From Roseivivax sediminis (GTDB lineage Bacteria > Pseudomonadota > Alphaproteobacteria > Rhodobacterales > Rhodobacteraceae): a stretch of 64,000 nucleotides of DNA. The stretch is taken from contig NZ_FOMS01000006.1 in NCBI RefSeq assembly GCF_900112685.1, forward strand, positions 186,001-250,000, given 5' to 3'. Position 1 is the stretch's first letter; each line of letters begins with the position of its first letter. The translations under genes and the position numbers were made by a program. The notes beneath the pieces are model-generated. The model was not told where the DNA came from. It did no database searches and saw only the letters and a list, made by a program, of their open reading frames with translations. Below are positions 1,902 through 24,094 of this stretch, in pieces.

Positions 1902-2915
1902 TCACGGCCACAGCATCCCGGTTGCGGCAAAGTATAGCGGAATCCCGATTATGATGTTGAAGGGGAACGTCAACCCCAGCGCCATCGAGAAGTAGACTCC
2001 CGGCCGTGCCTCGGGGATGGCGTAGCGCACGATCGCCGGGACCACGATGTATGACGCACTCGCCGACAGGACGGCAAGCAACATCGCGTCGCCACGCTGT
2101 AGCCCCAGGGTCCATGCGACCGCGATGGCGATGCCGGCATTCACCGGCGGCGCGACTAGGGCGAAAAGCAGCAAAGGCCGCTCAACGCGCGCCTGCCCCT
2201 CGCTGATCTGGCGGCCAACAAGCAGCCCCATCTCCAGCAGGAAGAAGGCGAGCAGCCCCTTGAAGATGTCAACGGTGAACGGAGCCATCGCCATGGTGCC
2301 TGCGTCGCCGACGATGAAGCCGATGATCAGGCTGCCGATCAGGAGCATGTGGTGCCCGTCGGTCAGCGCCTCGCGCAGAACCTTGCGGAACGACAGCGCA
2401 GGCAGTGGCCTCCCAGCGGTGCCGGCGTCCGAAGGCGTTGTTGCGGCAGTCTTGCGGGCGCGCACGAGGCTGGCGAGCAAGACCGCCATGACGATCGCGG
2501 GTGATTCCATTAGCACCATGGCCACCGTCATGTAGCCACCGAACTCAATCTGGTTGCTGATCAGGAACTGCTGCGTCGCGATGAAGGTGACGGCGCTGAT
2601 CGACCCGTAAGTGGCCGCGACCGCGGCAGCGTCGAAAGGGTCCAGGCGCCGCTTCAGCAGCACAAAGCTATAGGCCGGCACGGCCGCTGCCATGAAGAGC
2701 GAGGCTGCAAGCGCTAGCGCCCCCTCGATTGGCAGGCCGTCCTTGGCCAACGAAGCCCCTCCCTTCAGCCCAAGCGCCATTAGCAGGTAGAGCGCGAGAA
2801 ACTTGGCGATTGCGGCCGGCACTTCGAGGTTCGAACGCAGCAAACCGACAACGGTGCCCAGAGCGAAGAAGAGAATGGCCGGATCTAGCAGGTTCTGCGC
2901 GATGGTGTCGAGCAT
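1902..2915 (-). CDS. sbtA: Sodium-dependent bicarbonate transporter SbtA family
   Basis: A 337-residue, very hydrophobic protein of about ten membrane spans, matching the SbtA family that imports bicarbonate with sodium to raise internal inorganic carbon for RuBisCO. It opens MLDTIAQNLLDPAILFFALG and includes the conserved-looking stretches LKGGASLAKDGLP and YGSISAVTFIATQQFL. A hydrophilic loop near residues 150-175 separates two similar halves. I chose the ATG at 2915 because GAGGA lies just upstream; the frame is open further but without membrane-protein character. A damaged sbtB follows and a LysR gene is divergent upstream, which is the usual layout for a carbon-limitation-induced transporter. 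Confidence 0.85.
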   Translation of the reverse strand: MLDTIAQNLLDPAILFFALGTVVGLLRSNLEVPAAIAKFLALYLLMALGLKGGASLAKDGLPIEGALALAASLFMAAAVPAYSFVLLKRRLDPFDAAAVAATYGSISAVTFIATQQFLISNQIEFGGYMTVAMVLMESPAIVMAVLLASLVRARKTAATTPSDAGTAGRPLPALSFRKVLREALTDGHHMLLIGSLIIGFIVGDAGTMAMAPFTVDIFKGLLAFFLLEMGLLVGRQISEGQARVERPLLLFALVAPPVNAGIAIAVAWTLGLQRGDAMLLAVLSASASYIVVPAIVRYAIPEARPGVYFSMALGLTFPFNIIIGIPLYFAATGMLWP

Positions 2916-3203
2916 CAGGTCCTCGCGGCGGTTGAAACGGAACGCGCAGCACGGTCCGCCGTGGTTGGGCGGTCGTCGGGGTCCAGGGCGATTCCCGCCG
3001 CGCCGCTGCCTAGTCGGACGGCTACGAGACCCCCCAGACCGACGGGCCCGCTGCGCGAGCGAGACGGCCGAACCGCTCCCAGCCGAGCGGCGGAAGGCTC
3101 GGACGATTGGCGGTTTGGCCACGAGTGGATGTTGATGTGGGCGTAGTCCTTGACGCCGGCCTGATATGTCGCTTCAGCCACGTGAACCCTCCGCGTGCTT
3201 GCG

Positions 3204-3270
3204 CCTTTATTGGTTCGCACCGGCATTTCCGGTGTCTCGCGAGATTCCCTATCAGCCCGAACAAATAAGG
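3204..3270. promoter_or_regulatory. Nested inverted repeats in the sbtA-LysR intergenic region
   Basis: The 400-bp divergent gap between sbtA and the LysR gene contains an outer imperfect inverted repeat, CCTTTATTGGTTCG at 3204-3217 against CGAACAAATAAGG at 3258-3270. Inside it is a perfect one, CACCGG at 3218-3223 against CCGGTG at 3229-3234. LysR-type regulators normally bind dyads in such divergent gaps, so this is the best candidate operator, about 50 bp upstream of the LysR start. The role is inference. No promoter boxes are claimed. Confidence 0.4.
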
Positions 3271-3320
3271 GCCAATCAGATGCGCTTGCGGTTCACATAA
3301 CTCACACTTATGCTCCGCCC

Positions 3321-4337
3321 ATGCCGCTGGACTATCGCCAGATCCAGATCTTCGAAGCCGTGGCGCGGCATGGGTCCGTGACCCGCGCCGCGGCGGAGCT
3401 GAATGTCACCCAGCCAGCTGTGTCGATGCAGCTGCGCCAGTTCGAGGCCCGCGTCGGCCTCGCCTTGGTCGAACGATCGGGCCGACGGCTGACCCTGACC
3501 GACGCGGGCGAGGAGGTGCTGCGCCAGGCGCGCGGGCTCTTGCGCAGCATGGCCGACCTGCAGGACAGCCTCGACGCACTGCGTGGGCTCGACCGCGGCC
3601 GGCTGCGGCTGGCAGTGGTCTCCACCGCCAACTACTTTATCCCAAGGTTCCTCGCCGAGTTTCGGCGCCAGCACCCGGGGATCGAGGTGGTGCTGCATGT
3701 CGCCAACCACACCAGCGTGATCGAGAGCCTCGCCGCGAACGAGGCCGACCTGGCCATCGCCGGCCAGCCGCCTGAAACCGCCGACCTGGTGGCGCTTCCC
3801 TTTATGGACAACCCGCTCGTCGCCATCGCACAGCCGGGTCACCCCCTATCCGGGCACCGTTCGATCGCGATCGAACGTGTGACGCAGGAACCCTTCGTGG
3901 CACGCGAGCCGCGCTCGGGCACTCGCGCGGCTTTCGAGCGCGTGCTGGCCGCGCGTGGGCTCGAGGTGCGCCTGACCTGCGTGCTGGCCTCGAACGAGGC
4001 GGTCAAGCAGGCTGTGCAGGCGGGGCTCGGCCTAGCGGTAATATCGGCCCAGACCACCGAAACCGAGCAGGAAACCGGCCGACTCTGCGTGCTCGACGTG
4101 GACGGGTTCCCAATCCTGCGGCAATGGTACATCGTCTATCGGAACTACCGAAGACTGCCGCCGAGCGCGCTGGCCTTCCGCAACCTGCTGCGCCAGGCTG
4201 GGCGGCGGTCGCAGGCCGCAACCGCGGCGGACGACGGTCACGGTCAGCCCGCGGATCGGGTTCCATCGGCGAACCCCAGAAGCGCTGCCGGCGCAGCGGC
4301 CAACGGAAGGGCGAACGATGCCGATCGGTCGGGCTGA
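3321..4337 (+). CDS. LysR-family regulator, CbbR/CmpR-like, next to sbtA
   Basis: A 338-residue LysR-type regulator. The winged helix-turn-helix is at residues 1-65 (RQIQIFEAVARHGSVTRAA, then LNVTQPAVSMQLRQFE), and the periplasmic-binding-protein-like effector domain runs to about residue 300. The wording of the effector domain (AVVSTANYFIPRFLAEF, ANHTSVIESLA, SNEAVKQAVQAGLGLAVIS) is that of CbbR/CmpR/RbcR proteins, which sense Calvin cycle metabolites. It is divergent from sbtA, so it most likely controls bicarbonate uptake. The last 35 or so residues are low-complexity and may be non-conserved. Start chosen at MPLDYRQI because it aligns with the family start. A second CbbR is present at 17760. 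Confidence 0.85.
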   Translation: MPLDYRQIQIFEAVARHGSVTRAAAELNVTQPAVSMQLRQFEARVGLALVERSGRRLTLTDAGEEVLRQARGLLRSMADLQDSLDALRGLDRGRLRLAVVSTANYFIPRFLAEFRRQHPGIEVVLHVANHTSVIESLAANEADLAIAGQPPETADLVALPFMDNPLVAIAQPGHPLSGHRSIAIERVTQEPFVAREPRSGTRAAFERVLAARGLEVRLTCVLASNEAVKQAVQAGLGLAVISAQTTETEQETGRLCVLDVDGFPILRQWYIVYRNYRRLPPSALAFRNLLRQAGRRSQAATAADDGHGQPADRVPSANPRSAAGAAANGRANDADRSG

Positions 4338-4829: not shown

Positions 4830-6110
4830 ATGGCAGCCTTGTTCCTCGGAATTGACATCGGAACCAGCGGGGTCCGCGCTTGTGCCATCGACGAGCATGC
4901 ACGAATCCGGTGCGTGGCATCCGCCATGTTGCCCCCACCGCGCGTCAACGGCGACGCCATCGATCAGCAGCCCGACCTGTGGTGGCAGGCCTCGCTCGTC
5001 GCTATACGCAGGCTCGGCGAGCGGGTCGATCTCGGCGGCATCGAGCGCGTCGTTGTTGATGGCACATCCGGAACGCTGATACTGATTGACGCGGCGGGGC
5101 GGCCATGCACGCGGGGACTGATGTACAACGATGCCCGCGCGACCAAGGAGGCCGCCCGTATGGCTGCGATCGCACCGGCGGAATGCGGCGCACATAGCGC
5201 CAGCAGCGCACTGGCGAAGCTGCTGCACCTTCTCGGCCGCGGGGAGGTCGGGGCTGCGCGCCACGCAGTTGCTCAGGCCGATTGGATTGCCGGCCGCCTC
5301 GCGGAACGACACGGCGTCAGCGACGAAAACAACGCCTTGAAGCTCGGTTACGATCCGGTGGCGCGCGCGTGGCCGGCCTGGCTCGATCGTCTCGGCGTAC
5401 CCCGGGACCTTCTGCCTGAGGTTATGGTGCCGGGGACGCCCTTTGCCGACGTCGGCCCCAGCGTCGCACGCATGCTTGGTCTGTCGCCGCGGGCGCGCAT
5501 TGCAGCCGGCACGACCGATGGCGTGGCTGCCTTCATCGCCACGCGCGCGGACACCCCCGGCGACGCCGTCACATCGCTGGGCACCACGCTCGTCGTCAAG
5601 TTGCTAGCGACGCAGCCGATCTTCGCGCCCCATCAGGGCGTCTATTCACACCGCCTTGGTGATCGCTGGCTTGTCGGCGGCGCCTCGAATTCCGGTGGCG
5701 CGGCCCTCTCGATGCATTTCACGGCCGCCGAAATGGAACGCCTGACACCACAGCTCAGGCCGGCGCAACCGACCGGGCTCGATTTTTACCCCCTCCCGAA
5801 AGCCGGCGAACGTTTTCCGATTGCTGACCCGACCCTGGCGGCCAGGATCACTCCACGTCCCGCCGAAGATCATCGCTTCTTCCAAGGCCTGCTCGAAGGC
5901 ATCGCGTCGGTCGAGGCGCTCGCTTACCGGAGCCTTGCGCTGCTCGGCGCACCCGCGCTGCGGCGTGTCATCAGCATTGGCAGAGGCGCAAGGAACGATG
6001 CGTGGACCGAGATCAGGCGCCGCGTTCTCGGTGTTGATGTTACGGTCGCAGAGCAAACCGAAGCAAGCTACGGCGCGGCGCTCCTGGCGCTACAGGGCGG
6101 ACCGCCATGA
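4830..6110 (+). CDS. FGGY-family carbohydrate kinase, probable D-ribulokinase/xylulokinase
   Basis: A 426-residue FGGY kinase with two actin-like ATPase domains. It opens FLGIDIGTSGVRACAID (phosphate-binding loop), has GLMYNDARA in the sugar-contact region, AAGTTDGVAAFIA at the start of domain II, SLGTTLVVK as the second phosphate loop, and ISIGRGARNDAW near the C-terminus. It is close to the group that phosphorylates D-ribulose or D-xylulose. Its place beside a Calvin cycle operon suggests production of ribulose-5-phosphate or xylulose-5-phosphate for that cycle. It converges with cbbY and reads opposite to it, so it is not part of that operon. The substrate cannot be decided from sequence alone. 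Confidence 0.75.
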   Translation: MAALFLGIDIGTSGVRACAIDEHARIRCVASAMLPPPRVNGDAIDQQPDLWWQASLVAIRRLGERVDLGGIERVVVDGTSGTLILIDAAGRPCTRGLMYNDARATKEAARMAAIAPAECGAHSASSALAKLLHLLGRGEVGAARHAVAQADWIAGRLAERHGVSDENNALKLGYDPVARAWPAWLDRLGVPRDLLPEVMVPGTPFADVGPSVARMLGLSPRARIAAGTTDGVAAFIATRADTPGDAVTSLGTTLVVKLLATQPIFAPHQGVYSHRLGDRWLVGGASNSGGAALSMHFTAAEMERLTPQLRPAQPTGLDFYPLPKAGERFPIADPTLAARITPRPAEDHRFFQGLLEGIASVEALAYRSLALLGAPALRRVISIGRGARNDAWTEIRRRVLGVDVTVAEQTEASYGAALLALQGGPP

Positions 6111-6223: not shown

Positions 6224-6970
6224 TCACGTCCCCGTTGGGAGCGCGCCATCCTTGCTGGCGGTCATCCGACGTTTCGCCGCGTTTGATGGCAACAGGCGAC
6301 CATCGGCGTTGAACTCGCTTAGATCGGTCAGCAGTGCGTCGGCCTCGGCAAAGTCTTCGCCCTTTGAGTATTGACTTGGTGTGATGACTACGCGCAGCCC
6401 AGCCGCCTTGGCGGCCAGCAGGCCGTTGCGCGAGTCCTCGAAAGCGACGCAGCAATCCGGGCCAAGTCCAAGCCGGTCCAGCGCAATCGTATAGATGTCG
6501 GGGGCCGGCTTCTTGCGCGGCGCCTCGTCGCCGGCGGCTATCACATCGAACACAGCGCCGGCCGGTTCGCCCCAGCACGCGATGCAAAGCGCATCGACAT
6601 TCGGCAGATTCGTCGTCGTCGCCACGGCGGTTTTGATCCCTTGGAGCTTGGCGAACTGGATGAGCTCCCGGACGCCGGGACGCAAGGGAACGCCGCCGCC
6701 GACAATGATATCGCCGTAAGCCTTGGTCTTTTGGCGATGCAGGCTGGCGATGCTCTCATCCGACATGACAACTCCGGGGTATGCGCGCTCAAGAAAGGCA
6801 CGGATCCGCTCTTTGCCGCCGGTGACCTTGAGGAGTTCCCCATAGAGCGGCGCGTCCCAGTGCCAATCAAGACCGGCGGCAGCGAATGTCGAATTGAAGG
6901 CCTGCCGATGGGCCTCCTCCGTCTCGGCAAGTGTGCCGTCAACGTCGAAAATGAAGGCAGCGGTCTTCAT
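6224..6970 (-). CDS. cbbY: CbbY-family HAD phosphatase (xylulose-1,5-bisphosphate phosphatase)
   Basis: A 248-residue HAD-superfamily hydrolase. The nucleophile motif is at residues 7-13 (FIFDVDGTLAETEE), the cap domain follows, motif II is VATTTNLPN, and motif III with its Lys and acidic residues is KKPAPDIYTIALDRLG and CVAFEDSRNG. In red-type RuBisCO organisms CbbY removes xylulose-1,5-bisphosphate, an inhibitory by-product of RuBisCO. It is the last gene of the minus-strand operon. Its ATG at 6970 overlaps the stop of cbbZ (ATGA), so translation is coupled. About 30 residues after the HAD domain look non-conserved. Confidence 0.85.
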   Translation of the reverse strand: MKTAAFIFDVDGTLAETEEAHRQAFNSTFAAAGLDWHWDAPLYGELLKVTGGKERIRAFLERAYPGVVMSDESIASLHRQKTKAYGDIIVGGGVPLRPGVRELIQFAKLQGIKTAVATTTNLPNVDALCIACWGEPAGAVFDVIAAGDEAPRKKPAPDIYTIALDRLGLGPDCCVAFEDSRNGLLAAKAAGLRVVITPSQYSKGEDFAEADALLTDLSEFNADGRLLPSNAAKRRMTASKDGALPTGT

Positions 6971-7629
6971 GGTCTGCCGACCCCCTGCAGCACGTAATCC
7001 GAAAGATCGTCGAAGTGATCGAACACGTACACCGGTTCGAAGGCGTCGACGGACTCCCGGAGATACCCCCCGGAGAACAGCGCGAACGGAACCTTCGCGC
7101 GGAATGCGGTTTCGCCGTCGATCTCGCTGTCGCCGACATAGAGCGCGGAAGTTTCGTCCGCGCCGAGCCGGTCCAAGCAATGAAGCAGGGGAGCGGGGTC
7201 GGGTTTGAGCTGCGGCACCGTGCCTCCCCCCACAAGGGCGCCGACGAAACGCGCAAGCCCGAGCTCTTTGAGAATGGTGACGGCGAACTCAGGCGGCTTG
7301 TTCGTGCAGATGCCGAGCGCAACCCCGGATGCGGCGAGCCGCTCGAGCGTCGGCTCGACGCCAGCGTAAGGCCGTGTCAGCTGCGCCGGGGCACGCGCAT
7401 AGTGCTCCCGGAAGCGGGCGAGCGCGCTATCGAAATCGTCCGCAGGGCCGCCGGTCGCCTCGAGGCACCGCGCGACCAATGTCGGCACGCCGTTGCCCAC
7501 GAAACCGGCGACACGCTCGAGCGTTAAGGGCGGCCGCCCAAGGTCGCCGAGCATCCGGTTCGCCGCAGCGTGGAGATCCGGCGCACTGTCGATCAGCGTG
7601 CCGTCAAGGTCGAAAACGATCGCTTTCAT
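6967..7629 (-). CDS. cbbZ: Phosphoglycolate phosphatase
   Basis: A 220-residue HAD phosphatase of the Gph/CbbZ type. Motif I is FDLDGTLIDSAPDL at residues 5-18, the helical cap follows (ANRMLGDLGRPPLT), motif II is GICTNKP, and motif III is LKPDPAPLLHCLDRLG with YVGDSEIDGETA. The enzyme removes 2-phosphoglycolate made when RuBisCO reacts with oxygen. It overlaps the upstream aldolase-Dabb gene and the downstream cbbY, each by an ATGA junction. Such a gene inside a cbb operon has a clear job only if RuBisCO is present, yet no RuBisCO gene lies in this operon. Confidence 0.88.
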   Translation of the reverse strand: MKAIVFDLDGTLIDSAPDLHAAANRMLGDLGRPPLTLERVAGFVGNGVPTLVARCLEATGGPADDFDSALARFREHYARAPAQLTRPYAGVEPTLERLAASGVALGICTNKPPEFAVTILKELGLARFVGALVGGGTVPQLKPDPAPLLHCLDRLGADETSALYVGDSEIDGETAFRAKVPFALFSGGYLRESVDAFEPVYVFDHFDDLSDYVLQGVGRP

Positions 7630-8873
7630 CTTTTGGTTCCCGACGAAGTCGGCGGCTGGGTGCTCAAACTCGACTCCTTCTCCTCGCCCGAAACATCGAC
7701 AAGCTCGAAATCGATTGTGACGCGATCTGGAGCTGTCGGCCGGAACACCTTGTCGGCATAGCCGACGTGATCAGGGTGATCGCGGTAGCTGGCGACGACC
7801 TCGGGGGACGCGAAGCGGATGAGCCAGCAGTAGAGATATGGTGCATCCGTTCGCAGCGCGCGCCCGGCCAGCACATTGCGCACACCGGGGATTGCGCCAA
7901 TCGCCTCAACGCCCTGCGCCGCAAAAGCGCTCCAGTCTACGTTCTGCCCGCCGTCGCGCAGGTTGTAGACGACGACATGCTCGACTTCGCGCCAACGACG
8001 GCAAGCGGCCGACGCGGCGCCGGCGCGTCCCGCCGCTCCGAACAGCCGGCAGGTCCGCTCGACCTCGGCGCGAACAGCCCCCCGAACGCCGTGGATGAGT
8101 GCGGTGTAAGCCGGCGAGTCCTTGCTTTCCGCTTCCGCCACTATCGAACGCGCCGCGGCGTCGGCGAGGCCGGTAAAGTAGTTAATCTTGGCGACACCGT
8201 TTGCGGCGAGCATCGCGTACTGATCGTCGCTCAAGCCGGTCCCGCCATGGATGACGAGCGGAATGTGCAGGGCATCGCTGAGCGCGGACAGACGTTCGAA
8301 GTCGAGTCGCGGCGCGCCGCGCAGACGGCCGTGGACGGTGCCGATGGAGACCGCAAGGCAATCCACATGCGTTTCCGCGATGTACCGCTCGGCGTCCGCG
8401 AGCGAAGTCATCTGCATCGCGCCGGGATGTTTTTCTGCGTCCTCCCCCTCGACGCCGGGCACATAGCCGAGCTCGCCCTCCACCGTCACGCCGCAGCCGC
8501 GGGCAAGGCGGACGACCTCGCGCGTGGCCGTGATGTTGTCCTCGAGCGACGATAGCGACGCGTCGACCATGACACTGTTGCAGCCGAACCGGATCGCCCG
8601 TTCGACCGTCGTGAGGGAGTGCCCGTGGTCCAGATGGATGGTAACCGGCACCCGGGCGCGGCGCGCGGCATCCACGACCGCCGGCATGAAGCACTCGAAA
8701 TCGAAATGATCGAAATGGGACTCGGCCAAGCTCACGATCACCGGGGCGTCGCAGCCCTCGGCGCCGTCCAGCACAGCCTCTAGAAAAGCTGTGTCCACGA
8801 CATCATAGGCGCCGACGGCGTATCGCTCGCAATGGGCGTGCCGAAGCAGGTCGCTCATGTCCACGAGCGCCAT
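7626..8873 (-). CDS. Class II aldolase domain fused to a C-terminal Dabb domain
   Basis: A 415-residue protein with two parts. Residues 1-285 are a class II (zinc) ketose-bisphosphate aldolase of the FbaA/GatY/KbaY kind: IHLDHGHSLTTVERAI carries the zinc-binding His, VEGELGYVPGVEGED and VIHGGTGLSDDQY follow, and INYFTGLADAA is the phosphate-binding end. Residues 310-400 match a stress-responsive A/B barrel (Dabb): VEHVVVYNLRDG, IPGVRNVLAGRALR and DHPDHVGYADKVFRP. I know of no standard Calvin enzyme with this fusion. A full cbbA is present in the same operon, so this is a second aldolase with unknown substrate. Start ATG lies 5 bp after the cbbE stop; the frame upstream of it is cbbE coding sequence. 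Confidence 0.75.
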   Translation of the reverse strand: MALVDMSDLLRHAHCERYAVGAYDVVDTAFLEAVLDGAEGCDAPVIVSLAESHFDHFDFECFMPAVVDAARRARVPVTIHLDHGHSLTTVERAIRFGCNSVMVDASLSSLEDNITATREVVRLARGCGVTVEGELGYVPGVEGEDAEKHPGAMQMTSLADAERYIAETHVDCLAVSIGTVHGRLRGAPRLDFERLSALSDALHIPLVIHGGTGLSDDQYAMLAANGVAKINYFTGLADAAARSIVAEAESKDSPAYTALIHGVRGAVRAEVERTCRLFGAAGRAGAASAACRRWREVEHVVVYNLRDGGQNVDWSAFAAQGVEAIGAIPGVRNVLAGRALRTDAPYLYCWLIRFASPEVVASYRDHPDHVGYADKVFRPTAPDRVTIDFELVDVSGEEKESSLSTQPPTSSGTKR

Positions 8874-8877
8874 CGGT

Positions 8878-9579
8878 TTACGCTGCCTTTCTCTGCGCCG
8901 CAGTCGCAGCCTCGCGGATGGCGCGGATGTTCCGAGCGTAGGGTGCAGGGTCGGCAACCGATCCGCCCTTGAAGACAGCCGATCCCGCAACTAGTACGTC
9001 AGCGCCAGCGGCGGCGACCAGCGGCGCCGTCTCGGGCGTTACACCGCCATCAACCTCGATATGAATAGGCCGGTCTCCAACCATCTGGCGCAAACGGCGA
9101 ATCTTGGGGACCATGGCCTCGATGAAGCTTTGCCCGCCGAAGCCGGGGTTGACTGTCATCACGAGGATCAGGTCGACGCGGTCGAGGACGAATTCGATCG
9201 CTTCCGCCGGCGTGGACGGGTTAAGCGAGACGCCCGCTTTAGCCCCGGCGGCGCGGATGGCCTGCAAGGTCCGGTCAAGATGCGGGCCAGCCTCGGCATG
9301 TGCGGTGATGATGTCGGCGCCGGCCTCGGCGAATGCGTGAATGTAGGGGTCCACTGGAGCGATCATCAGATGTACATCCATGACGGTCTTCACGTGGGGC
9401 CGGATGGCCCTGCAGAGTTGCGGGCCAAAGGTGATGTTCGGCACGAAATGGCCGTCCATCACGTCGACATGCACCCAATCGCAGCCTTGTGCTTCGATAG
9501 CGCGGCATTCGGCGCCGAAAGCGGCGAAGTCGGCGCTGAGGATGGAAGGTGCGATCTTGATGGAGCGATCGAACGTCAT
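8878..9579 (-). CDS. cbbE: Ribulose-phosphate 3-epimerase
   Basis: A 233-residue TIM-barrel enzyme that interconverts ribulose-5-phosphate and xylulose-5-phosphate. Signatures are [16 protein letters not shown] at the N-terminus, [19 protein letters not shown] (metal-binding His and Asp), [12 protein letters not shown], and [13 protein letters not shown] with [10 protein letters not shown] at the phosphate site. It is in the Calvin cycle operon, overlapping the upstream cbbX-derived ORF by four bases (ATGA). Normal family length and no missing residue seen. In related operons cbbE commonly follows cbbX, which is what remains of the order here. Confidence 0.93.
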
Positions 9580-9863
9580 CTGTCGTCCTCCTTCCCGCCG
9601 TCCTCAGGCGCCACATCGCTGTCCAGCCCGCCGCGAAACACGCGGCTCGCACGCACGTCGCTTTCCTCGATCGTGGATACCGCCTCGATCCCTACCCGGC
9701 CGCCTACGCTCTCGAAGAGGCGATTGGCTTGACGCAGCCGCATACGATCAATGGCGTTGAGGATCGAGCGCGCGTTGGCAAAATGCGGTTGCGCGCGCCG
9801 CAGCGCGCCATCGCCGGGCGCGCTCCTTGCGGTTACGGTCGGGGACTTCAATGCTTCGTTCAT
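9576..9863 (-). pseudogene. cbbX: CbbX C-terminal remnant fused to a short foreign N-terminus; RuBisCO genes deleted here
   Basis: The ORF ends in the C-terminal helical domain of CbbX, the AAA+ activase of red-type RuBis[30 protein letters not shown], then [16 protein letters not shown]. The ATPase domain with Walker A/B is missing. In front are only about 22 residues, [19 protein letters not shown], preceded by a good ribosome site (CAGGAA, then ATG at 9863; an ATG at 9881 is also in frame). The front could be the first codons of cbbL, the large RuBisCO subunit, which would mean one in-frame deletion removed most of cbbL, all of cbbS and most of cbbX. The CbbX end is clear; the cbbL origin of the front is inference. 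Confidence 0.7.
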
Positions 9864-9907
9864 GACAGGTTCCTGGTTCATGCGGCACTGGCAGCGGAGA
9901 TTTGCGG

Positions 9908-10957
9908 CTATAGCGCGCCATTGGTGTAGCGCTTCGCCATTTCGCTCAGCGGAATCGGCTTGATCTTCGAGGCGTTGCCCGCAGCGCCGAACGCTTCGAA
10001 ACGCTCCGCGCAGACCTTCCGCATCGCGTCCATCGCCGGCTTCAGGAACTTGCGAGGATCGAACTCATCTTTCTTCGTATTGGCGATGCGACGGAATTCA
10101 GCAGTTGCGGCGAGTCGGAGATCGGTGTCGATGTTGATTTTCCGCACCCCGTGTTTGATGCCGCGCACAATCTCTTCGACAGGCACACCATAGGTTTCGC
10201 GCATTTGCCCGCCATGTGCGTTGAAAACCTCCTGCCATTCCTCCGGAACCGACGAGGACCCATGCATGACGATGTGCGTGTTTGGCAGCTTCTGATGGAT
10301 CGCTTCGATCACAGACATGGCCAGCACTTCGCCCGTCGGCTTCCTCGTGAATTTGTATGCGCCGTGGCTTGTGCCGATGGCGACGGCCAGCGCATCGACT
10401 TTCGTCTCGGCAACGAAGCGCATGGCTTCGTCGGGATCCGTCAGGAGCATCGACTTGTCGAGCTTGCCTTCGAATCCGTGCCCGTCCTCCGCCTCGCCAA
10501 GGCCGGTCTCCAACGAGCCGAGACAGCCGAGCTCACCCTCCACCGATACCCCGACCATATGGGCGAGTTCGGTGACTTGCCGCGTCACCTTGACGTTGTA
10601 GTCGTAGTCGGCTGGCGTCTTTGCATCCTCCTTCAGCGAGCCGTCCATCATGACAGACGAAAAGCCGTTCTGGATCGCGGAAAGGCAGGTACTGACGTCG
10701 TTTCCGTGATCTTGATGCAAACACACAGGTATGTCGGGAAACATCTCGACGAGCGCCTCAATCACCTTTCGCAGCATGACGTCCCCGGCGTAGGAGCGCG
10801 CGCCTCGACTGGCCTGAATGATGACGGGCGCGTCCATTTCGCGGGCTGCCTCCAGTATTGCGAGGCCCTGTTCCATATTGTTGATATTGAAGGCCGGGAC
10901 GCCGTAACCCTGTTCCGCCGCGTGGTCGAGCAATTGTCTGAGCGTTATGAGCGCCAT
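9908..10957 (-). CDS. cbbA: Fructose-bisphosphate aldolase, class II (Calvin cycle form)
   Basis: A 349-residue zinc-dependent aldolase. It joins triose phosphates to fructose-1,6-bisphosphate and, in the Calvin cycle, also makes sedoheptulose-1,7-bisphosphate. Visible motifs: [20 protein letters not shown] at the start, CLHQDHGND with a zinc-binding His, [29 protein letters not shown], and [16 protein letters not shown] at the phosphate site. The ATG at 10957 is the family start; the frame upstream runs into cbbK. It sits 17 bp after cbbK and just before the cbbX remnant. Confidence 0.93.
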
Positions 10958-10974
10958 CGTCGTTTCCTTTCCGA

Positions 10975-12177
10975 TCATGCCAACTGGGGGGTTCTGAGAA
11001 CCGACACGCCCGGCAGTTCCTTGCCCTCTAACCATTCGAGGAAAGCGCCACCTGCCGCGGACACATAGGTGAAGTCGTCGGTCACTCCGGCAGCGTTCAA
11101 CGCCGCGACCGTATCGCCGCCCCCGGCAATCGATCTAACCTGCCCGACACGTGTCAGGCGCGCCGCTTCGGCGGCGACAGCCTCCGTGGCGTGATCGAAA
11201 GGCTCGATCTCGAAAGCGCCAAGAGGGCCGTTCCAGAGGATGGTCTTCGCCTCTGCAAGGACATCCCAAATGCGCTCGATTGAGCGCGGGCCTGCGTCCA
11301 GTATCATGCCGTGCTCAGGACAACCGTCGAGCTTGACTATGTGCGCCTGCGCGCCGCGCTCGAAGCGGTCAGCCCAAACAATGTCGACCGGCAAGACGAT
11401 CTGGCAGCCGCAGCTTTGGGCCCGCGACAGGATCTTGCGCACGGTCTCGAACTGAGCGGGTTCGTGCAATGATTTGCCAATAGGCAAGCCGTTTGCGGCC
11501 AGGAACGTATTGGCCATGCCGCCGCCGACGATCACGGTATCGAGCTTGCCAATCAGATTGAAGAGCACGTCAATCTTGCTCGATACCTTGGCACCGCCCA
11601 CGAGCGCGACGGCAGGCCGCTGCGGTGCTTCCAGCGCCTGCGTGAGTGCCGAGATCTCCGCCATCATCAGCGGACCGGCCACGGCCGGCAGTCGCTCCGC
11701 GATGGCTACCGTCGATGCGTGTGCCCGATGCGCACAGGAGAATGCATCGTTGACGTAGAGATCGCCTAGCTCCGCCAGTTCTTCCGCCAGGCTCGCGTCA
11801 TTGGCTTCCTCGCGCTGGTCGAACCGTAGATTCTCGCAGACGAGAACATCGCCAGGGCCGAGTGCGGCGGCCGACCTCGCGGCGACGGGTCCACTTATCG
11901 CTTCGCTGAAGGCCACGTCCTTGCCAAGCACTCGGCCCAGGGCCGCGGCCACTGGTTCAAGTGAGAGTTCCGGCCGCCGCTGCCCGTCGGGGCGCCCGAG
12001 GTGAGAGAGAACGACGGCTCGGGCACCTCTCGCCAGAAGCGGTTTCAGACCAGCCACGAAGCGCTCGATGCGCGTCGCGTCCGCAACGCCGCCGTTGTTC
12101 ATCGGCACATTCAAGTCGGCGCGAATGAGGAGGCGACGGCTGGATATCTCGACGTCGTGGACGGACTTCAGCGTCAT
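10975..12177 (-). CDS. cbbK: Phosphoglycerate kinase
   Basis: A 400-residue PGK of normal length, turning 3-phosphoglycerate plus ATP into 1,3-bisphosphoglycerate. N-terminal signature [14 protein letters not shown], the substrate-binding LSHLGRPDG and [39 protein letters not shown], and in the nucleotide domain [11 protein letters not shown] and [12 protein letters not shown]. The ATG at 12177 overlaps the stop of cbbG (ATGA). It provides the step just after RuBisCO in the cycle. Confidence 0.94.
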
Positions 12178-13181
12178 CCGATGAGCCTCCCCATCGCGAC
12201 GGCCGTATCGGCCATCCGGTTCGAGAAGCCCCATTCATTGTCGTACCACGACATGACGCGACAGAGGCGCCCGTCGATCACCTTGGTCTGATCCGTATGG
12301 ACGATCGAAGAGCGCGGATCATGCGTGAAATCCACAGAGACCAGCGGTTCGTCCGTGAAGCCCAGGATACCCTCAAGGTCCGCGCCGGCAGCTGTCCGGA
12401 CGACGCTGTTGATCTCCTCGGCGGTCGTCTCGCGGCTCGCGATGAACTTAAAATCGACGACCGAAACGTTCGGAGTCGGCACCCTGATCGCGACACCGTC
12501 GAGTTTGCCATTCAGCTCCGGCAGCACCAGGCCCACCGCCTTGGCCGCTCCCGTCGAGGTCGGGATCATCGACATCGCCGCGGCGCGGGCTCTGTACGGA
12601 TCCTTGTGCAGAGTATCGAGCGTCGGCTGGTCGCCGGTATAGCTATGGATCGTCGTCATGAATCCCTTGTCGATGCCGATGGCCCGGTGAAGCACCGCCG
12701 CGACCGGGGCGAGACAATTGGTGGTGCAGGAGGCGCAGGAAACGACAATGTCTTCCGCCGACAGGCTATTGTGGTTGACGCCGAAGACGATTGTTTTGTC
12801 GGCGCCTGAGGCGGGAGCGGAGACCAGGACGCGCTTCGAGCCGTTCTCGAGGTGTAGCGAGGCCTTCTCGCGCGCGACGAAGATGCCGGTGCATTCAAGC
12901 GCGATGTCCACGTCTTTCCATGGCAGTGTTTTTGGGTCGCGCTCGGCGGTCACACGGATCGGCGAGCCGCGACCAATATCAATGCTGGCGCCGTTCACCT
13001 TGACGGCGCCCGGGAAAGTTCCGTGCACGCTGTCATATCGCAGCAGATGGGCGTTAATATCGACTGAGCCGAGATCGTTAATCGCGACGACTTCGATATC
13101 GCCCCGCCCCGATTCGTAGATCGCGCGCAGCACGTTGCGCCCGATGCGCCCGAATCCATTAATGGCAACCTTGACCGTCAT
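12174..13181 (-). CDS. cbbG: Glyceraldehyde-3-phosphate dehydrogenase
   Basis: A 335-residue GAPDH. The N-terminal Rossmann motif is [17 protein letters not shown], the catalytic site is [14 protein letters not shown] (active Cys), followed by [12 protein letters not shown], the phosphate-binding [18 protein letters not shown], and the C-terminal [14 protein letters not shown]. The Asp after the beta-2 strand (INDLG) suggests NAD use, though dual specificity cannot be excluded by eye. It lies between cbbT and cbbK with ATGA overlaps on both sides, so it is translated with the operon. Confidence 0.94.
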
Positions 13182-15193
13182 TTGTGCTCCTCCCCGGGCT
13201 TACGGGCGAGCCGCCACCCCTCGGCCGCGACTCTTTCGGCTGTGATGCCAAAGTGGTTGTAAAGATCGGCGGCAGGACCAGAGGCGCCGAAACCCGTCAT
13301 TCCGACGAAGCTGGAATTGGACCCGAGCCATTCTGCCCAGCCGAGAGCGACGCCCGCCTCCACACCGACGCGCGGCGCCTCGCCCAGCACGGATGCGCGA
13401 TAGTCGGCTTCCTGGGCGGCAAACAGCTCCCAGCAGGGCGCAGAAACTACGGCGACCGCCAGCCCGTCTGCCGCCAGCCTGTCGGCCGCCTCGACGGCAA
13501 CGACGACCTCAGATCCCGTGGCGATCAACGTCAAATCGCGGCTCGCGCCCGGGTCGCGCAGGAGATAGGCGCCGCGTGCCGTCATGTTCTCGTCGCCATG
13601 CTCCGTGCGCAGCGTCGGCAGATCCTGCCGTGAGAGGCAAAGCACCGACGGCGTCTTGGCTGCGACGAGCGCGACCTCCCAAGCTTCCGCGGTCTCCACC
13701 GCGTCGGCGGGCCGGAACACGTAGACGTTCGGCATCGCTCTCAGCGATGCGAGGTGCTCGACCGGTTGGTGCGTCGGACCGTCCTCCCCCAGGCCGATGC
13801 TGTCGTGCGTCATCACGTAGATGACCGGCCGACCCATGAGAGCCGACAGACGAATTGCGGGGCGACAATAGTCGGCGAAGGCGAGGAACGTGCCGCCATA
13901 GGGCCGCAATCCTCCATGCAGCGAGATGCCGTTCATCGCCGCGGCCATCCCATGCTCGCGCACCCCGTAGTGGATGTAGTTGCCCGTGAAGTCGGCCCGC
14001 GTCACGGGATGCATGCCCTTGGTGCGCGTGTTGTTGGAGCCGGTGAGATCGGCTGAGCCTCCTACCATGTTGGGGATGGTCGAATTCACGACCTCCAACG
14101 CCAGTTCGGAACCCTTGCGAGTGGCAACCTTCGGCCGCTCGCCGCACAGGCGTCGGCGATGATCGGCCAGCGCTGCATGCAACCTCGCGGCATCGGGGGG
14201 CGCGAGATGGGCCACAAACTCCTCCTGCTGGGGACTGCGAGCGAGCCGCTCTTGCCACTCGGCTCGGATGCGCGTTCCGCGAGCGCCGATTACGCGCCAG
14301 GCATGAACGATCTCCTCCGGAACCTCGAAGGGCGGATAGATCCAGCCAAGGCTTTCGCGTGCCGCGGCTACCTCCTCCTTGCCCAGCGGCGCACCATGCG
14401 TGGCCGATGTCCCCTGCTTATTGGGCGCGCCGAAGCCAATGATGGTGCGGCAGGCGACCAGAGAGGGGCGGGGATCGGCCTGTGCTTCGGCGATCGTCTT
14501 GGCGACCGCTTCCCGGTCGTGGCCGTCAACGGCCACGACATGCCAGCCGGCGGCAGCGAACCGCGCCTTCTGATCCAGCGAGGTCGACAGACTTGTGGGC
14601 CCGTCGATTGTGATCTGGTTGTCGTCCCACAGCACGATGAGCCGGCCAAGGCCGAGATGGCCGGCAAGGTCAATCGCCTCATGACTGATCCCCTCCATCA
14701 GGCAGCCGTCGCCGGCGATCACATATGTATGGTGATCGACGAGCTCGTCGCCAAAACGCGCATTCAGCATACGTTCGCTGAGAGCCATACCCACGGCGGT
14801 TGCGATTCCCTGGCCGAGCGGACCGGTAGTCGTTTCGATTCCCGCAGCATGGCCGAATTCCGGATGCCCAGCTGTCCGGCTGCCGAGTTGGCGAAATCGG
14901 CGCAGCTGGTCCATGGACATGTCTTGGAAGCCGAGGAGGTGGTGAAGTGCGTACAGCAACATCGATCCATGCCCAGCGCTCAGCACAAAACGGTCGCGAT
15001 CGGGCCAATTGGGCTGCGTCGGGTCGATCTTCACGAAGCGGTTGAAGAGCACGGTAGCGGCATCCGCCATGCCCATGGGCATTCCGGGATGGCCTGACTT
15101 CGCAGCCTCTACCGCATCCATCGCGAGCGCGCGGATCGCGTTCGCCATCTGCGCCTCATCGATGATTTCATTGTGCTCGGCAACGAGGTTCAT
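13178..15193 (-). CDS. cbbT: Transketolase
   Basis: A 671-residue thiamine-diphosphate enzyme of normal length, moving two-carbon units in the regenerative part of the Calvin cycle. Motifs: [17 protein letters not shown] near the N-terminus, [15 protein letters not shown], the TPP-binding [18 protein letters not shown], and in the second domain [17 protein letters not shown] and [18 protein letters not shown]. Start overlaps the stop of cbbP and the end overlaps the start of cbbG (both ATGA). No missing key residue seen. Confidence 0.95.
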
Positions 15194-16077
15194 GAGGACG
15201 ACCCTTTCAAACGTTTGGATTGATCGACGAGCCGAAGGATCATCGGTGTGAGGATGAGTTGCATCGCGAGATCGAGCTTGTCTCCGGGTACCACAATCGA
15301 GTTGGCTCGGCTCATCCAGCTGCCGCAGATCATCTGCGTGAGATAGGGGAAATCGATGCCGCGCGGGCTCTTGAAGCGAACGACAACCAGGCTTTCCCCG
15401 GCCGTCGGAATCCAGCGGGCGATGAACGGATTGGATGTATCGACAACCGGCACGCGCTGGAAATTGATGTCGGTCTCAGAGAATTGCGGACAGATGCAGT
15501 GCACATAGGCGTGCATCCGCCGCAGGATGACATCGGTCACGGCTTCGGTGGTGTAGCCGCGTGAAGCCTTGTCCCTATGGATTTTCTGGATCCATTCGAG
15601 GTTGATCACCGGAACAACGCCGATCTTCAGATCGGCATGGTCGGCGATGCGAATGTCCTGGGTACGCACAGCTCCGTGCAACCCTTCATAGAGGAGAACG
15701 TCCGACCCCTTCTCGAAATCTTCCCATTCGGTAAAGCGACCAGGCGGCACTCCGTAGCGTTCGGCTTCCTCGCCGTCGTGGACGTAGTGACGCGTACGCC
15801 CAGTGCCTGTCGCACCGTACGAAGCGAAGACTTTCTCAAGCGCGGCAAGCTCATTTGCCTCGAAGCTGAAGTGGCTGAAGGTGCGATCGCCCTCGTCATA
15901 GCGGCGCTGGAGCTCAGCCTTCATCTCCGCGCGATCGAACCTGTGGAACGCGTCGCCCTCGATCGAGACCGCTTTGATGCCCTCCCTCCTGAAGATCTGA
16001 TCGAACGTGTGCTTAACAGTGCTTGTGCCCGCGCCAGAGGATCCGACAACCGAGATGATTGGATGCTTGCTGCTCAC
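15190..16077 (-). CDS. cbbP: Phosphoribulokinase
   Basis: A 295-residue bacterial-type PRK, which phosphorylates ribulose-5-phosphate to ribulose-1,5-bisphosphate, the RuBisCO substrate. The P-loop is [16 protein letters not shown] at residues 9-24; the substrate region reads [13 protein letters not shown] and [23 protein letters not shown] is the Walker B-like part. I place the start at a GTG at 16077 because AAAGGGG lies just ahead and the family starts here; the open frame upstream runs into cbbF. All residues I know of are present, so the enzyme should be active even though its only dedicated consumer, RuBisCO, is missing from this operon. Confidence 0.93.
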
Positions 16078-16102: not shown

Positions 16103-17119
16103 TCACACCCTGAACAAGCCACGCTTGCCGAACAGTGGCGAGATTTCGCTTTCGGGAAGGTCGTGATACGCGCGAACTCGGCTGACTTTCTCGGCAGTGC
16201 CGAAGACGAGTGGCGTGCGCTGATGGAGCTCACTCGGAGTCAGGTCGAGGATGCGGTCGATCCCGTCGGTCGCCTTGCCGCCTGCGCGCTCAACGATGAA
16301 GGCGATCGGTGCGCACTCATAGACCAGGCGCAGTCGCCCCTGGCCATAGCCTCGCCTGGCGTCAGCGGGATAAAGGAAAATCCCGCCCCGCGTGAGAATT
16401 CGGTGGGTCTCGGCGACCAGCGATGCGACCCAACGCATATTGAAGTTCTCTCCCCACGGCCCTTCATCACCGGCGATGCAGTCGTCGACGAAAGCCCGTA
16501 TCGGCCGCGGCCAATGCCGGTAATTGGATGCGTTGATGGCGAACTCGGTTGTCCGATCAGGGATGCGCAAGCTGTCGGAAACGAGGAAGAAGTGACCACG
16601 GTCGAGCACAAACTGGGCAAGTCTGGTCCGAGTCGCGAGGATGAACACCGTTTGTGGGCCATAGACCACATAACCTGCAGCGATTTGCTCGCGCCCCGGA
16701 CGATGGAAACTCTCCAGGCCGGATTCTTTGGCTTCGAAGACCGAGAAGATCGTCCCGATCGAGATGTTCACATCGATGTTGGACGACCCGTCCAGCGGAT
16801 CAATTGCAAGCGCTAGAGTGCCTTCGGGGTTGAGGATTTCCGCAGTTGGGCGCTCCTCCGAGGCATACCAGCGAACAGGTGTGGGAGCGAGCGCCTTGGC
16901 GAAGAGTTCATCCGCCACGACGTCGAGTTTCTTCTGGCGGTCGCCATCGCTGTTCGCACCCACCTCCTCGCCGAGGCGCCCATTGAGCGGACCGCTCGAT
17001 ATCACCCCGGCTAGGGTCTCCGCGACAAAGGCGAGCGCCGTAACGGTGATCGCAAGCGGTTCCGAAACGGAGCCTTCGCCCTCAAGGAAGCTTTCGAGAG
17101 TGCCTTCCAGTGCCGTCAT
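16103..17119 (-). CDS. cbbF: Fructose-1,6-bisphosphatase, class I
   Basis: A 338-residue FBPase, normal length for the Calvin cycle form, which also acts on sedoheptulose-1,7-bisphosphate in many bacteria. Metal and substrate motifs are RWYASEERPTAEILN, LAIDPLDGSSNIDVNIS, NFNMRWVASLVAE with GGIFLYPAD, and YECAPIAFIVERAGG. The ATG at 17119 has GGGAG seven bases ahead; a GTG at 17149 is less likely. A truncated second FBPase lies directly upstream, so the gene is duplicated and this is the complete copy. Confidence 0.92.
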   Translation of the reverse strand: MTALEGTLESFLEGEGSVSEPLAITVTALAFVAETLAGVISSGPLNGRLGEEVGANSDGDRQKKLDVVADELFAKALAPTPVRWYASEERPTAEILNPEGTLALAIDPLDGSSNIDVNISIGTIFSVFEAKESGLESFHRPGREQIAAGYVVYGPQTVFILATRTRLAQFVLDRGHFFLVSDSLRIPDRTTEFAINASNYRHWPRPIRAFVDDCIAGDEGPWGENFNMRWVASLVAETHRILTRGGIFLYPADARRGYGQGRLRLVYECAPIAFIVERAGGKATDGIDRILDLTPSELHQRTPLVFGTAEKVSRVRAYHDLPESEISPLFGKRGLFRV

Positions 17120-17640
17120 GACCGTGCTCCCAGGAGCCAGCTCCCGCACACGGTACTTTGACGCGAGCTAAAGGGAACTTTGAAAATACCTTTGCAGCAT
17201 GAAACAAAACTACTGCCAGGTTTCACGACTAGGCGATCACGCTGGAGTAGCTGCGGGCGCTGACAGCGATCGTCGAAGCCGGAAACCTCACGTCGGGAGC
17301 CGTCCAGCGGATCGATTGCGAGCGCCAGCGGCGCACCTGCGTCGAGGCGAACAGGCGCGGCCAGTTCCTCTGATGCATAAAGCGCGACAGGCGCGCAACG
17401 GGCCGCGTCGAGAAAGGTTTCGTCAGCGTAGATGTCGAGGCTGCGCTGCACACCGCCATCGGCATTTTTCCCGAAGCCTGTGGTCGCGAAGGCAGAGCTG
17501 GTGGTCCCGAAGCCAACCTCGTTGCGGATTCTCAGGGCTGCTGCGGCAAGCATGCAAACTGTCTCGGCGACCGCCGCGCGTGGACTGTCTCCGGCGTGCT
17601 CGTAAGAAGCAAGAAATGCGTCCAGGGTCGACGCGTTCAT
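17116..17640 (-). pseudogene. Truncated second FBPase at the head of the cbb operon
   Basis: The first gene of the operon, starting at an ATG with a strong GGAGGAGAGG ahead of it. Residues 1-115 are an FBPase N-terminus different from that of cbbF: TTGFGKNADGGVQRSLDIYA, VALYASEELAAPVRL and LALAIDPLDGS. Homology then stops abruptly near 17296 and the remaining 60 codons (RREVSGFDDRCQRPQLL onward) are unrelated and end inside the start of cbbF. The catalytic site is cut in two, so it cannot be an active phosphatase. The remainder of the gene has been deleted or replaced. It may still act as a translated lead-in for cbbF. Confidence 0.75.
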
Positions 17641-21254: not shown

Positions 21255-22187
21255 GAGCCCAACCGAAAATTATGTTGGGTGATTTCAGCAGGTTATGATT
21301 CTCAGTGGTTTGCGAAACTACGGAGGATCGAATGGCCTGGACCGAAATCACCCGGGAGCAATATGACCGACGGCACCTGCGCTACGCAAGCGATAGCACT
21401 GATGATGAATGGGCGTTGATCGAACCGTTCATGCCTGCGCCCAATAAGGTTGGGCGGCCGCGCAAGTGGCGGATGCGAGAGATATGGGACGCGATCCAGT
21501 ATATCGCGGCGGCGGGCTGCCAGTGGGCGATGCTGCCGAAGGACTTTCCACCCTTCACGACGGTCCAGCACTATTTTTACCGGCTGCGCGACAGCGGCAT
21601 GCTCGACCTTATCAACGAAACGCTGGTCATGTGGGCTCGGCTTTTGGCTGGCCGGGCAGCGGAGCCGACGGCGGGGGTAATTGATAGCCAGAGCGTCAAG
21701 ACCACGGAAAGCGGCGGGCCGCGTGGTTTCGACGCCGGCAAGAAGACCAAGGGGCGCAAGCGTCATATCCTTACCGACACCGAGGGCAACATGCTGGGCG
21801 CGGTCACTCACACCGCCGACGTTCAGGACAGGGACGGCGCGCCAAATGTCATTGCCGACACGAAAGAGAGTTTCCCGACACTTGCCCATCTGTTCGCCGA
21901 TGGCGGCTATGCCGGGGAAAAGCTGGAAACCGCCATGCAGAATATGGACGGGCCGACCATTGAGATCGTCAAACGGCCCGATGGCGTAAAAGGCTTCGTC
22001 GTCATCGCGCGGCGCTGGGTCGTCGAACGCAGCTTCGCATGGTTTGGCCGCTGCCGCCGTCTCGCAAAGGACTGGGAGACAACCATCGCGTCCGCCGACG
22101 CATGGCTTCTCATCGCCTCCATCCGCCGCACGACAAGGCTCATCGCAAGAGCTTGAAATCAATGAGTATTAATTTTGAGTCTGACTC
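21255..22187 (+). mobile_element. IS5-family insertion sequence, complete, TAA target duplication
   Basis: A 933-bp element with one transposase gene. The ends are imperfect inverted repeats: GAGCCCAACCGAAAATTA at the left tip and GAGTCAGACTCAAAATTA when the right tip is read inwards. Each tip is flanked by TAA (21252-21254 and 22188-22190), which fits the short TNA target duplication of the IS427-type group in the IS5 family. Intact ends and an intact transposase suggest recent arrival in an otherwise decayed stretch. Confidence 0.7.
21332..22156 (+). CDS. IS5-family transposase
   Basis: A 274-residue DDE transposase. The N-terminal DUF4096-like part reads DDEWALIEPFMPAPNKVGRP; the catalytic acids are in VIDSQSVKTTE, HLFADGGYAGEKLE and RWVVERSFAWFGRCRRL. 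The start at 21332 has GGAGGATCGA directly ahead of it. One continuous frame, no lesion, so probably active. It fills nearly all of the IS element. Confidence 0.9.
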   Translation: MAWTEITREQYDRRHLRYASDSTDDEWALIEPFMPAPNKVGRPRKWRMREIWDAIQYIAAAGCQWAMLPKDFPPFTTVQHYFYRLRDSGMLDLINETLVMWARLLAGRAAEPTAGVIDSQSVKTTESGGPRGFDAGKKTKGRKRHILTDTEGNMLGAVTHTADVQDRDGAPNVIADTKESFPTLAHLFADGGYAGEKLETAMQNMDGPTIEIVKRPDGVKGFVVIARRWVVERSFAWFGRCRRLAKDWETTIASADAWLLIASIRRTTRLIARA

Positions 22188-23979: not shown

Positions 23980-24094
23980 TGTGGTTCGGCGTGGAATAAG
24001 GACCCCGTTTCAGGGGTGATCGGCATCCAAAAAGGACCCCTGTAACGGTTGGTCTTCAGACTGCTTCCGGTTTCATCGGAGGCATTTGATTTGG

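Follow-up and report, generated by a model that had tools for sequence, protein, structure and literature searches.

A 64,000-nucleotide window of the Roseivivax sediminis genome (contig NZ_FOMS01000006.1, positions 186,001 to 250,000; all coordinates below are those of the window) carries, within a cbb operon on the minus strand, a gene that joins a class II aldolase domain to a C-terminal Dabb domain. We propose, with a probability of roughly two in five, that the product of this fusion gene is a metal-dependent class II aldolase that releases dihydroxyacetone phosphate (DHAP) and disposes of RuBisCO side products, and not simply an extra fructose-1,6-bisphosphate (FBP) aldolase. RuBisCO is found in all 16 genomes in which we located the fusion (11 genomes from a pattern scan, four from a profile search, and R. 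sediminis itself). RuBisCO by-products are inhibitory. As a conserved lyase that is linked to RuBisCO, keeps both of its active sites, and co-occurs with CbbY, the fusion would be a candidate for a missing bacterial metabolite-repair step and might find use in engineered carbon fixation.

A two-domain protein encoded in one frame

The fusion open reading frame (ORF; 7626 to 8873, minus strand) has the coordinates given in the original prediction and runs in a single frame of 415 residues from an ATG at 8873-8871 to a TGA at 7628-7626. PF01116 (F_bP_aldolase) matches residues 4-283 (8025 to 8864; 253.9 bits against a cut-off of 25.5, E 2.7e-75), and PF07876 (Dabb) matches residues 297-390 (7704 to 7985; 38.1 bits, cut-off 25), which agrees with the C-terminal Dabb stretch of about 95 residues that had been noted. 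The tail beyond it, residues 395-415, is predicted with a local confidence score (pLDDT) below 50. The stop codon shares the sequence ATGA (7629-7626) with the start of cbbZ, a coupling already recognized in the original prediction; the gap to cbbE, put there at five bases, is 4 bases (cbbE stop at 8880-8878).

A frame error joining two genes is ruled out by the presence of one continuous ORF in 16 genomes, and a stray insertion by the equal gene order of Bradyrhizobium BTAi1 (cbbL-cbbX-cbbE-fusion-cbbZ-cbbY), so that the gene is part of the operon, as had been supposed. Relatives with the two parts in separate genes, the outcome that was to speak against a true fusion, turned up in part: a close standalone Dabb gene lies in a cbb cluster of Allomeiothermus silvanus, while the aldolase of that cluster is of the canonical DPR type. 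This separate gene points to modularity rather than to a sequencing error. Judged by its sequence, the fusion is a genuine two-domain protein. We found no published description of an aldolase-Dabb fusion in the open-access literature, as far as titles and abstract openings go among the matches listed, and within those bounds this agrees with the original prediction, to which no such aldolase was known. BTAi1-type cbb clusters and Calvin-cycle aldolases are covered without mention of Dabb or a fusion in the available parts of two papers (PMC3130060 and PMC7895386). The fusion thus appears to be a new combination of known domains, and its substrate is probably new too.

The aldolase domain

The aldolase domain includes the motifs H80-x-D82-H83-G, E132-G-E134, H181-G-R183, H209-G-G, and K229-I-N231-x-x-T234. 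No variation is seen among the 16 aligned copies at D82, H83, H181, H209, N231, and T234, nor at R183 or in the run E51-S52-H53-F54. We take D82, H83, H181, and H209 to be metal and catalytic residues and N231 and T234 to line the DHAP side. All 13 CbbA-type rows have the DPR[KD] motif, whose arginine presumably holds the distal phosphate of FBP (R331 in Escherichia coli), and none of the 16 aligned fusion copies has it; YdjI and the sulfofructose-phosphate aldolase SqiA also lack it. From these residues we infer aldolase chemistry with a DHAP half and a non-canonical distal side of the active site.

The fusion falls short of the cut-off for each of the 20 NCBIfam families listed. It does not reach the FBP or ketose-bisphosphate aldolase families TIGR00167 (197.8 against 215.6 bits), TIGR01859 (212.5 against 343.05), and TIGR01521 (99.6 against 496.35), and its best score, 251.6 bits for NF005284, is likewise under the cut-off of 406. 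In a 60-row tree (two loci of relatives, L012 and L024, gave no row, and the HR40 gene, found as both L026 and L039, was counted once) the fusions form one clade with support of 100/100, and CbbA falls elsewhere. Their sister is an NF005284-type enterobacterial aldolase (93/81), a join flagged as a possible long-branch effect, followed by YdjI (85/78). This bare sister gene has a D-lyxose/D-mannose isomerase gene (NF051472, 431 bits) on one side and, on the other, a gene for a PfkB kinase, next to an ABC transporter, a context that would point to a ketulose-1-phosphate substrate. The failed family cut-offs, the missing DPR[KD], and the lyxose operon of the bare relatives together make a substrate other than FBP likely, as the original prediction had suggested.

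The enterobacterial operon (L085:3189-9326) has the order ABC sugar transporter, D-lyxose/D-mannose isomerase, NF005284 aldolase, and PfkB kinase; families were tested in L085, and the same order was read in L086-L089. If its substrate is a ketulose-1-phosphate, the name of NF005284, "ketose 1,6-bisphosphate aldolase," may be wrong.

The Dabb domain

Comparison of the whole predicted protein with known folds gave only aldolases among the matches listed, the larger domain having taken up every place, and the Dabb domain was therefore modeled alone. The resulting single-chain model (pLDDT 93) is closest to 3bde (Z 14.2, 2.4 Å over 99 residues), followed by olivetolic acid cyclase (OAC; Z 13.9), Passiflora hydroxynitrile lyase (13.5), and LsrG (11.3). 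The domain is marked by H299, Y363-x-x-H366-P367-x-H369, F377-R378-P379-x-x-x-x-R384, and D388. Residues H5, Y72, and H78 of OAC, mutants of which are named in PDB titles and which we take to be catalytic, have their counterparts in H299 (16 of 16 copies), Y363 (15 of 16), and H369 (15 of 16) in the alignment, the numbering having been matched by fold-alignment ranges. The signature F-R-P-x-x-x-x-R is found in 16 of 16 copies, in the second Thiococcus copy, and in the standalone Allomeiothermus Dabb, and is absent from the generic Dabb relatives aligned in full (L096-L104 and 3bde). In a sample of 398 Pseudomonadota genomes, 11 standalone Dabb relatives score 36-55 bits, against 147-169 for the five fusions, and, where both places are listed, they are on contigs other than that of the same genome's RuBisCO.

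The Allomeiothermus silvanus gene, on plasmid pMESIL01, the only plasmid record matched by the Dabb domain, encodes a protein 37-51% identical to the fusion Dabbs. It overlaps by ATGA a HAD gene whose product is 47% identical to the window CbbY, next to tkt; after three intervening small genes and a LysR gene in the opposite orientation come, on the same strand, glpX, cbbL, cbbS, cbbX, prk, rpe, and fba, the last with the DPRK of the canonical type. By these comparisons, the link of the Dabb subfamily to RuBisCO holds whether or not an aldolase is attached. That its pocket is kept both fused and unfused argues for a catalytic or ligand-binding role rather than a purely structural one. In this stretch (L091:18099-19714, minus strand) the Dabb/cbbY-like pair precedes two small genes, of 95 and 92 amino acids, that have no Pfam match and appear similar to one another by eye.

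Distribution and association with RuBisCO

Counting R. sediminis, the fusion was found in 16 genomes and 17 copies, from groups that include alpha-, beta-, and gammaproteobacteria, with two copies in Thiococcus pfennigii and full-length orthologues in the 15 other genomes. It is absent from 60 relatives, 8 of them congeners, and from 195 other genomes of the order. Among 385 genomes of the class, only one orthologue besides our own was found (HR40, 58% identical), plus two aldolase-only matches. A scan with two short patterns, at one genome per species, gave 11 loci, all full length and 53-94% identical, HR40 included; the profile search of the 398 Pseudomonadota genomes gave four more fusions besides our own, and in another 12 genomes it matched the aldolase part only. 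In the total, HR40 was taken once and the 12 aldolase-only genomes among the 17 matched were left out. Since the four profile-search genomes are not among the pattern-scan loci, having been either overlooked by that scan or absent from its genome set, the true number of fusion genomes is probably much larger. Sources include Bradyrhizobium BTAi1, Albidovulum, Thiococcus, and metagenome-assembled genomes of Thiohalobacter and Gallionellaceae. Of the 401 plasmid records matched by the whole protein, not one reached 80% coverage of the query. Close to its start the BTAi1 gene has seven additional bases (L037:9985-10010) that throw its first ATG out of frame, so that translation would need a later TTG or ATG as start.

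The RuBisCO gene found in the fusion genomes is that of the large subunit; in one of them (G830) it is only a fragment at a contig start, which reads as the end of this gene and lies 87 bases ahead of the fusion. The RuBisCO family was found in 117 of the 398 genomes of the phylum sample, and the chance of meeting it in all four fusion genomes besides our own is about 0.7% by simple arithmetic, relatedness not being corrected for. Eight of the 17 fusion copies, that of the window included, lie among cbb genes, in several arrangements: cbbLS-cbbX-fusion (L031), cbbLS..cbbO-fusion-cbbE..cbbY..cbbZ (L033 and L041), cbbLS..cbbO-fusion-sbt-like (L038), cbbL..cbbX-cbbE-fusion-cbbZ-cbbY (L037, BTAi1), cbbL-fusion (L084), and cbbY-fusion (L090). 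The presence of cbbQ ahead of cbbO, and of cbbS in L037, was inferred from gap size. The original prediction had asked whether the gene always sits beside cbbY and cbbZ; one or both are nearby in only 5 of 17 copies. The second Thiococcus pfennigii fusion (in L090:6830-8825, minus strand) is directly downstream of a cbbY homologue whose product is 48% identical to the window CbbY.

A further PF01116 gene is present in 16 of 16 fusion genomes (in G609 as a contig-edge fragment only). The fusion is thereby ruled out as the sole class II aldolase of the cell, and cleavage of FBP and sedoheptulose-1,7-bisphosphate (SBP) is probably covered. A close CbbY (E 1e-48 or better, at least 45% identity) is encoded in 15 of 16 genomes, our own included, the best match in HR40 being 34% identical; it is unlikely on this count that the fusion substitutes for CbbY.

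Proposed role and alternatives

RuBisCO generates xylulose-1,5-bisphosphate (XuBP) by misprotonation and D-glycero-2,3-pentodiulose-1,5-bisphosphate (PDBP) by oxygenase misfire, and PDBP gives rise to carboxytetritol-1,4-bisphosphate (CTBP) (PMC9833046). In bacteria, the established phosphatase for XuBP is CbbY, which removes the C1 phosphate, and XuBP has been prepared in the laboratory by aldol addition of DHAP to glycolaldehyde phosphate (PMC10212915). In the role we propose for the fusion, a RuBisCO error would yield a C5 sugar (bis)phosphate as its target, the Dabb domain would bind and possibly rearrange this compound, and the aldolase domain would cut the C3-C4 bond. The DHAP released would re-enter the Calvin cycle, and the two-carbon piece, which might be 2-phosphoglycolate, glycolaldehyde phosphate, or free glycolaldehyde, would be taken up by neighboring phosphatases. 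XuBP is threo at C3-C4, as FBP aldolases form, and ribulose-1,5-bisphosphate (RuBP) is not, so that a member of this aldolase family could break down XuBP while leaving RuBP intact. With a close CbbY in nearly all of the genomes, a second side product would be a more economical target than XuBP.

Such a product could be PDBP, a 2,3-pentodiulose like the phosphorylated autoinducer-2 (phospho-AI-2) that is processed by LsrG and the aldolase-fold LsrF. LsrG shifts the carbonyl of phospho-AI-2 and is the model for the Dabb step. By analogy, the His/Tyr/His pocket of the Dabb domain, together with the invariant R378 and R384, would convert PDBP to a 3-hydroxy-2,4-diketone 1,5-bisphosphate, which the metal-dependent aldolase domain would split into DHAP and 2-phosphoglycolate, the latter to be dephosphorylated by CbbZ; in Allomeiothermus, the Dabb step would fall to the separate protein beside the CbbY homologue. 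If this were true, the fusion-cbbZ-cbbY cassette, with CbbY acting on XuBP, would deal with the principal side products of RuBisCO. A one-protein LsrG/LsrF counterpart destroying PDBP in this specific manner is nonetheless quite improbable.

Several observations weigh against disposal of RuBisCO side products. No cbb neighbor was seen in the flanks examined for 9 of the 17 copies (L032, L034, L035, L036, L039, L040, L081, L082, and L083), four of which (L034, L035, L040, and L083) have a contig end no more than about 0.7 kb away. Position near RuBisCO is compatible with clean-up and with the hitchhiking of ordinary sugar catabolism alike, and does not tell the two apart. The ratio of non-synonymous to synonymous rates (dN/dS) between the window and BTAi1 fusions is 0.46, on small counts (21.5 synonymous and 29.5 non-synonymous changes), versus 0.07-0.28 in eight neighboring genes, so the fusion may be under weaker selection in this pair; between L033 and L041 it is clearly constrained, with a dN/dS of 0.14 overall and 0.16 in the Dabb part. 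The second Thiococcus copy, the 17th, reads DPRA in the DPR[KD] loop, and the motif is also missing from the NF005284 rows and from other bare aldolase groups of the tree; its loss therefore points away from FBP but toward no single substrate. When folds are compared, FBP aldolases also score level with YdjI and SqiA: among the closest matches to the predicted aldolase domain are SqiA (8q57; Z 39.5, 1.7 Å, 278 residues) and YdjI (6ofu; Z 39.1, 1.3 Å), with FBP aldolases 9a4l and 3q94 at 39.3 and 38.7, and the fold does not discriminate between these.

That tie can be read in favor of a second Calvin-cycle FBP/SBP aldolase in which Dabb serves for dimerization or stability only, as can the PF01116 domain itself, the place in a cbb operon, and the higher number of class II aldolase copies reported for Calvin-cycle genomes (1.18, versus 0.81 in others; PMC7895386). 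The other PF01116 gene of every fusion genome, the scores under all listed FBP-aldolase cut-offs, and the lack of DPR[KD] speak against it, however, as do the conserved Dabb pocket and the occurrence of the same Dabb subfamily unfused beside a cbbY-like gene, and we consider a duplicate enzyme of this kind rather unlikely. The original prediction had instead suggested an aldolase for pentulose-1-phosphates, xylulose-1-phosphate or ribulose-1-phosphate, arising when RuBisCO by-products are dephosphorylated. Sugar catabolism could be another source of these compounds, and their cleavage would give DHAP and glycolaldehyde. The D-lyxose isomerase-aldolase-PfkB-ABC transporter operon of the NF005284-type sister fits such a substrate, since it would imply a route from lyxose via xylulose and xylulose-1-phosphate to these two products. 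The caution attached to the sister join tells against the argument, as does the lack of any match to the window FGGY kinase in the 21 kb of BTAi1 locus L037, and known CbbY takes the C1 phosphate to give xylulose-5-phosphate, not xylulose-1-phosphate (PMC10212915). We view this pentulose-1-phosphate activity as rather unlikely too. A catabolic aldolase for sugar acids or other sugar phosphates, similar to YdjI and traveling with mobile cbb clusters, would account for the adjacent YdjI branch, for the good YdjI fit, and for the nine copies away from cbb genes; the presence of RuBisCO in every fusion genome and the several different cbb arrangements across alpha-, beta-, and gammaproteobacteria are harder to reconcile with it, and it seems slightly less likely still.

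The operon and other genes of the window

From fbp at 17149 the operon reads, on the minus strand, fbp-prk-tkt-gap-pgk-cbbA-(scar)-cbbE-fusion-cbbZ-cbbY, where the names fbp, tkt, gap, and pgk come from reading the sequence. It comprises genes for fructose-1,6-bisphosphatase (16103 to 17149, with a putative start codon), phosphoribulokinase (15190 to 16059; NF011997, 465.6 bits, cut-off 362), transketolase (13178 to 15193; 94% identical to BTAi1), glyceraldehyde-3-phosphate dehydrogenase (12174 to 13181; 98%), phosphoglycerate kinase (10975 to 12177; 97%), and the canonical class II FBP aldolase CbbA with its DPRK motif (9908 to 10960; TIGR01521, 674 bits, cut-off 496). Around the fusion are cbbE, for ribulose-phosphate 3-epimerase (8878 to 9579; PF00834, 274 bits), cbbZ, for phosphoglycolate phosphatase (6967 to 7629; TIGR01449, 216 bits, cut-off 180), and cbbY, for a HAD phosphatase (6224 to 6973; PF00702; 91% identity to its BTAi1 neighbor over 222 residues) whose name and position suggest a putative XuBP phosphatase.

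Between cbbA and cbbE is a deletion scar (9576 to 9881, minus strand) made up of the first cbbL codons and the last ~76 cbbX codons (PF17866, AAA_lid_6). By blastn against BTAi1 (L037 6336-9021), 2.7 kb is gone, comprising almost the whole of cbbL, the sequence following it, and most of cbbX; cbbS is assigned to the deleted part by place. The scar joins the cbbL start to the cbbX end, and the two blastn pieces overlap by 7 bases. The window operon is thus left without its own RuBisCO, and the fusion has nevertheless been kept. The genome's sole RuBisCO match is on this contig but beyond the window, ~17 kb off, and adjoins genes that by reading belong to an alpha-carboxysome and a hydrogenase.

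Further genes include a Sbt_1 bicarbonate transporter (1902-2900, minus strand), a LysR regulator (3195-4337, plus strand), and the FGGY kinase (4830-6110, plus strand), which is XylB-like but well under the XylB cut-off and convergent with cbbY; lacking a counterpart in the BTAi1 locus, it was rejected as a conserved partner. Downstream of the cbb region, ORFs at 21305-22156 and 24086-26328 (plus strand) read like insertion-sequence genes. They fit a mobile cluster, as do the 8 congeners without the fusion and the 91-98% identity of the compared operon proteins to those of Bradyrhizobium BTAi1.

Comparison with known systems

The NF005284 (PRK06801) branch and YdjI resemble the fusion in fold, in metal and catalytic motifs, and in the missing DPR[KD], but have no Dabb domain; the strand-2 motif is AEVHF in this kin and AESHF in the fusions, and the NF005284 rows belong to enterobacterial sugar operons and not to cbb operons. 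CbbA (TIGR01521) shares PF01116 and the operon with the fusion, but it is only about one third identical over the shared part, has DPRK and no Dabb, and falls in another clade. On the Dabb side, mll5499 (3bde), OAC, and Passiflora hydroxynitrile lyase have the same fold as the fusion Dabb, in which the OAC pocket counterparts are kept, but they are freestanding; 3bde is without the F-R-P-x-x-x-x-R signature, and the OAC alignment stops inside it.

LsrG, which we count as ABM-type rather than Dabb, resembles the fusion Dabb in fold. With LsrF it acts in autoinducer-2 breakdown, where a 2009 paper reports that LsrG yields 2-phosphoglycolate and proposes that LsrF, whose products were undetected, gives DHAP (PMC2728841). 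The pair differs from the fusion in being two proteins, in the class I type of LsrF, and in its substrate, and it is like the fusion in bringing together a small alpha/beta-barrel protein and an aldolase-type protein, there acting on a five-carbon diulose phosphate (PMC2728841).

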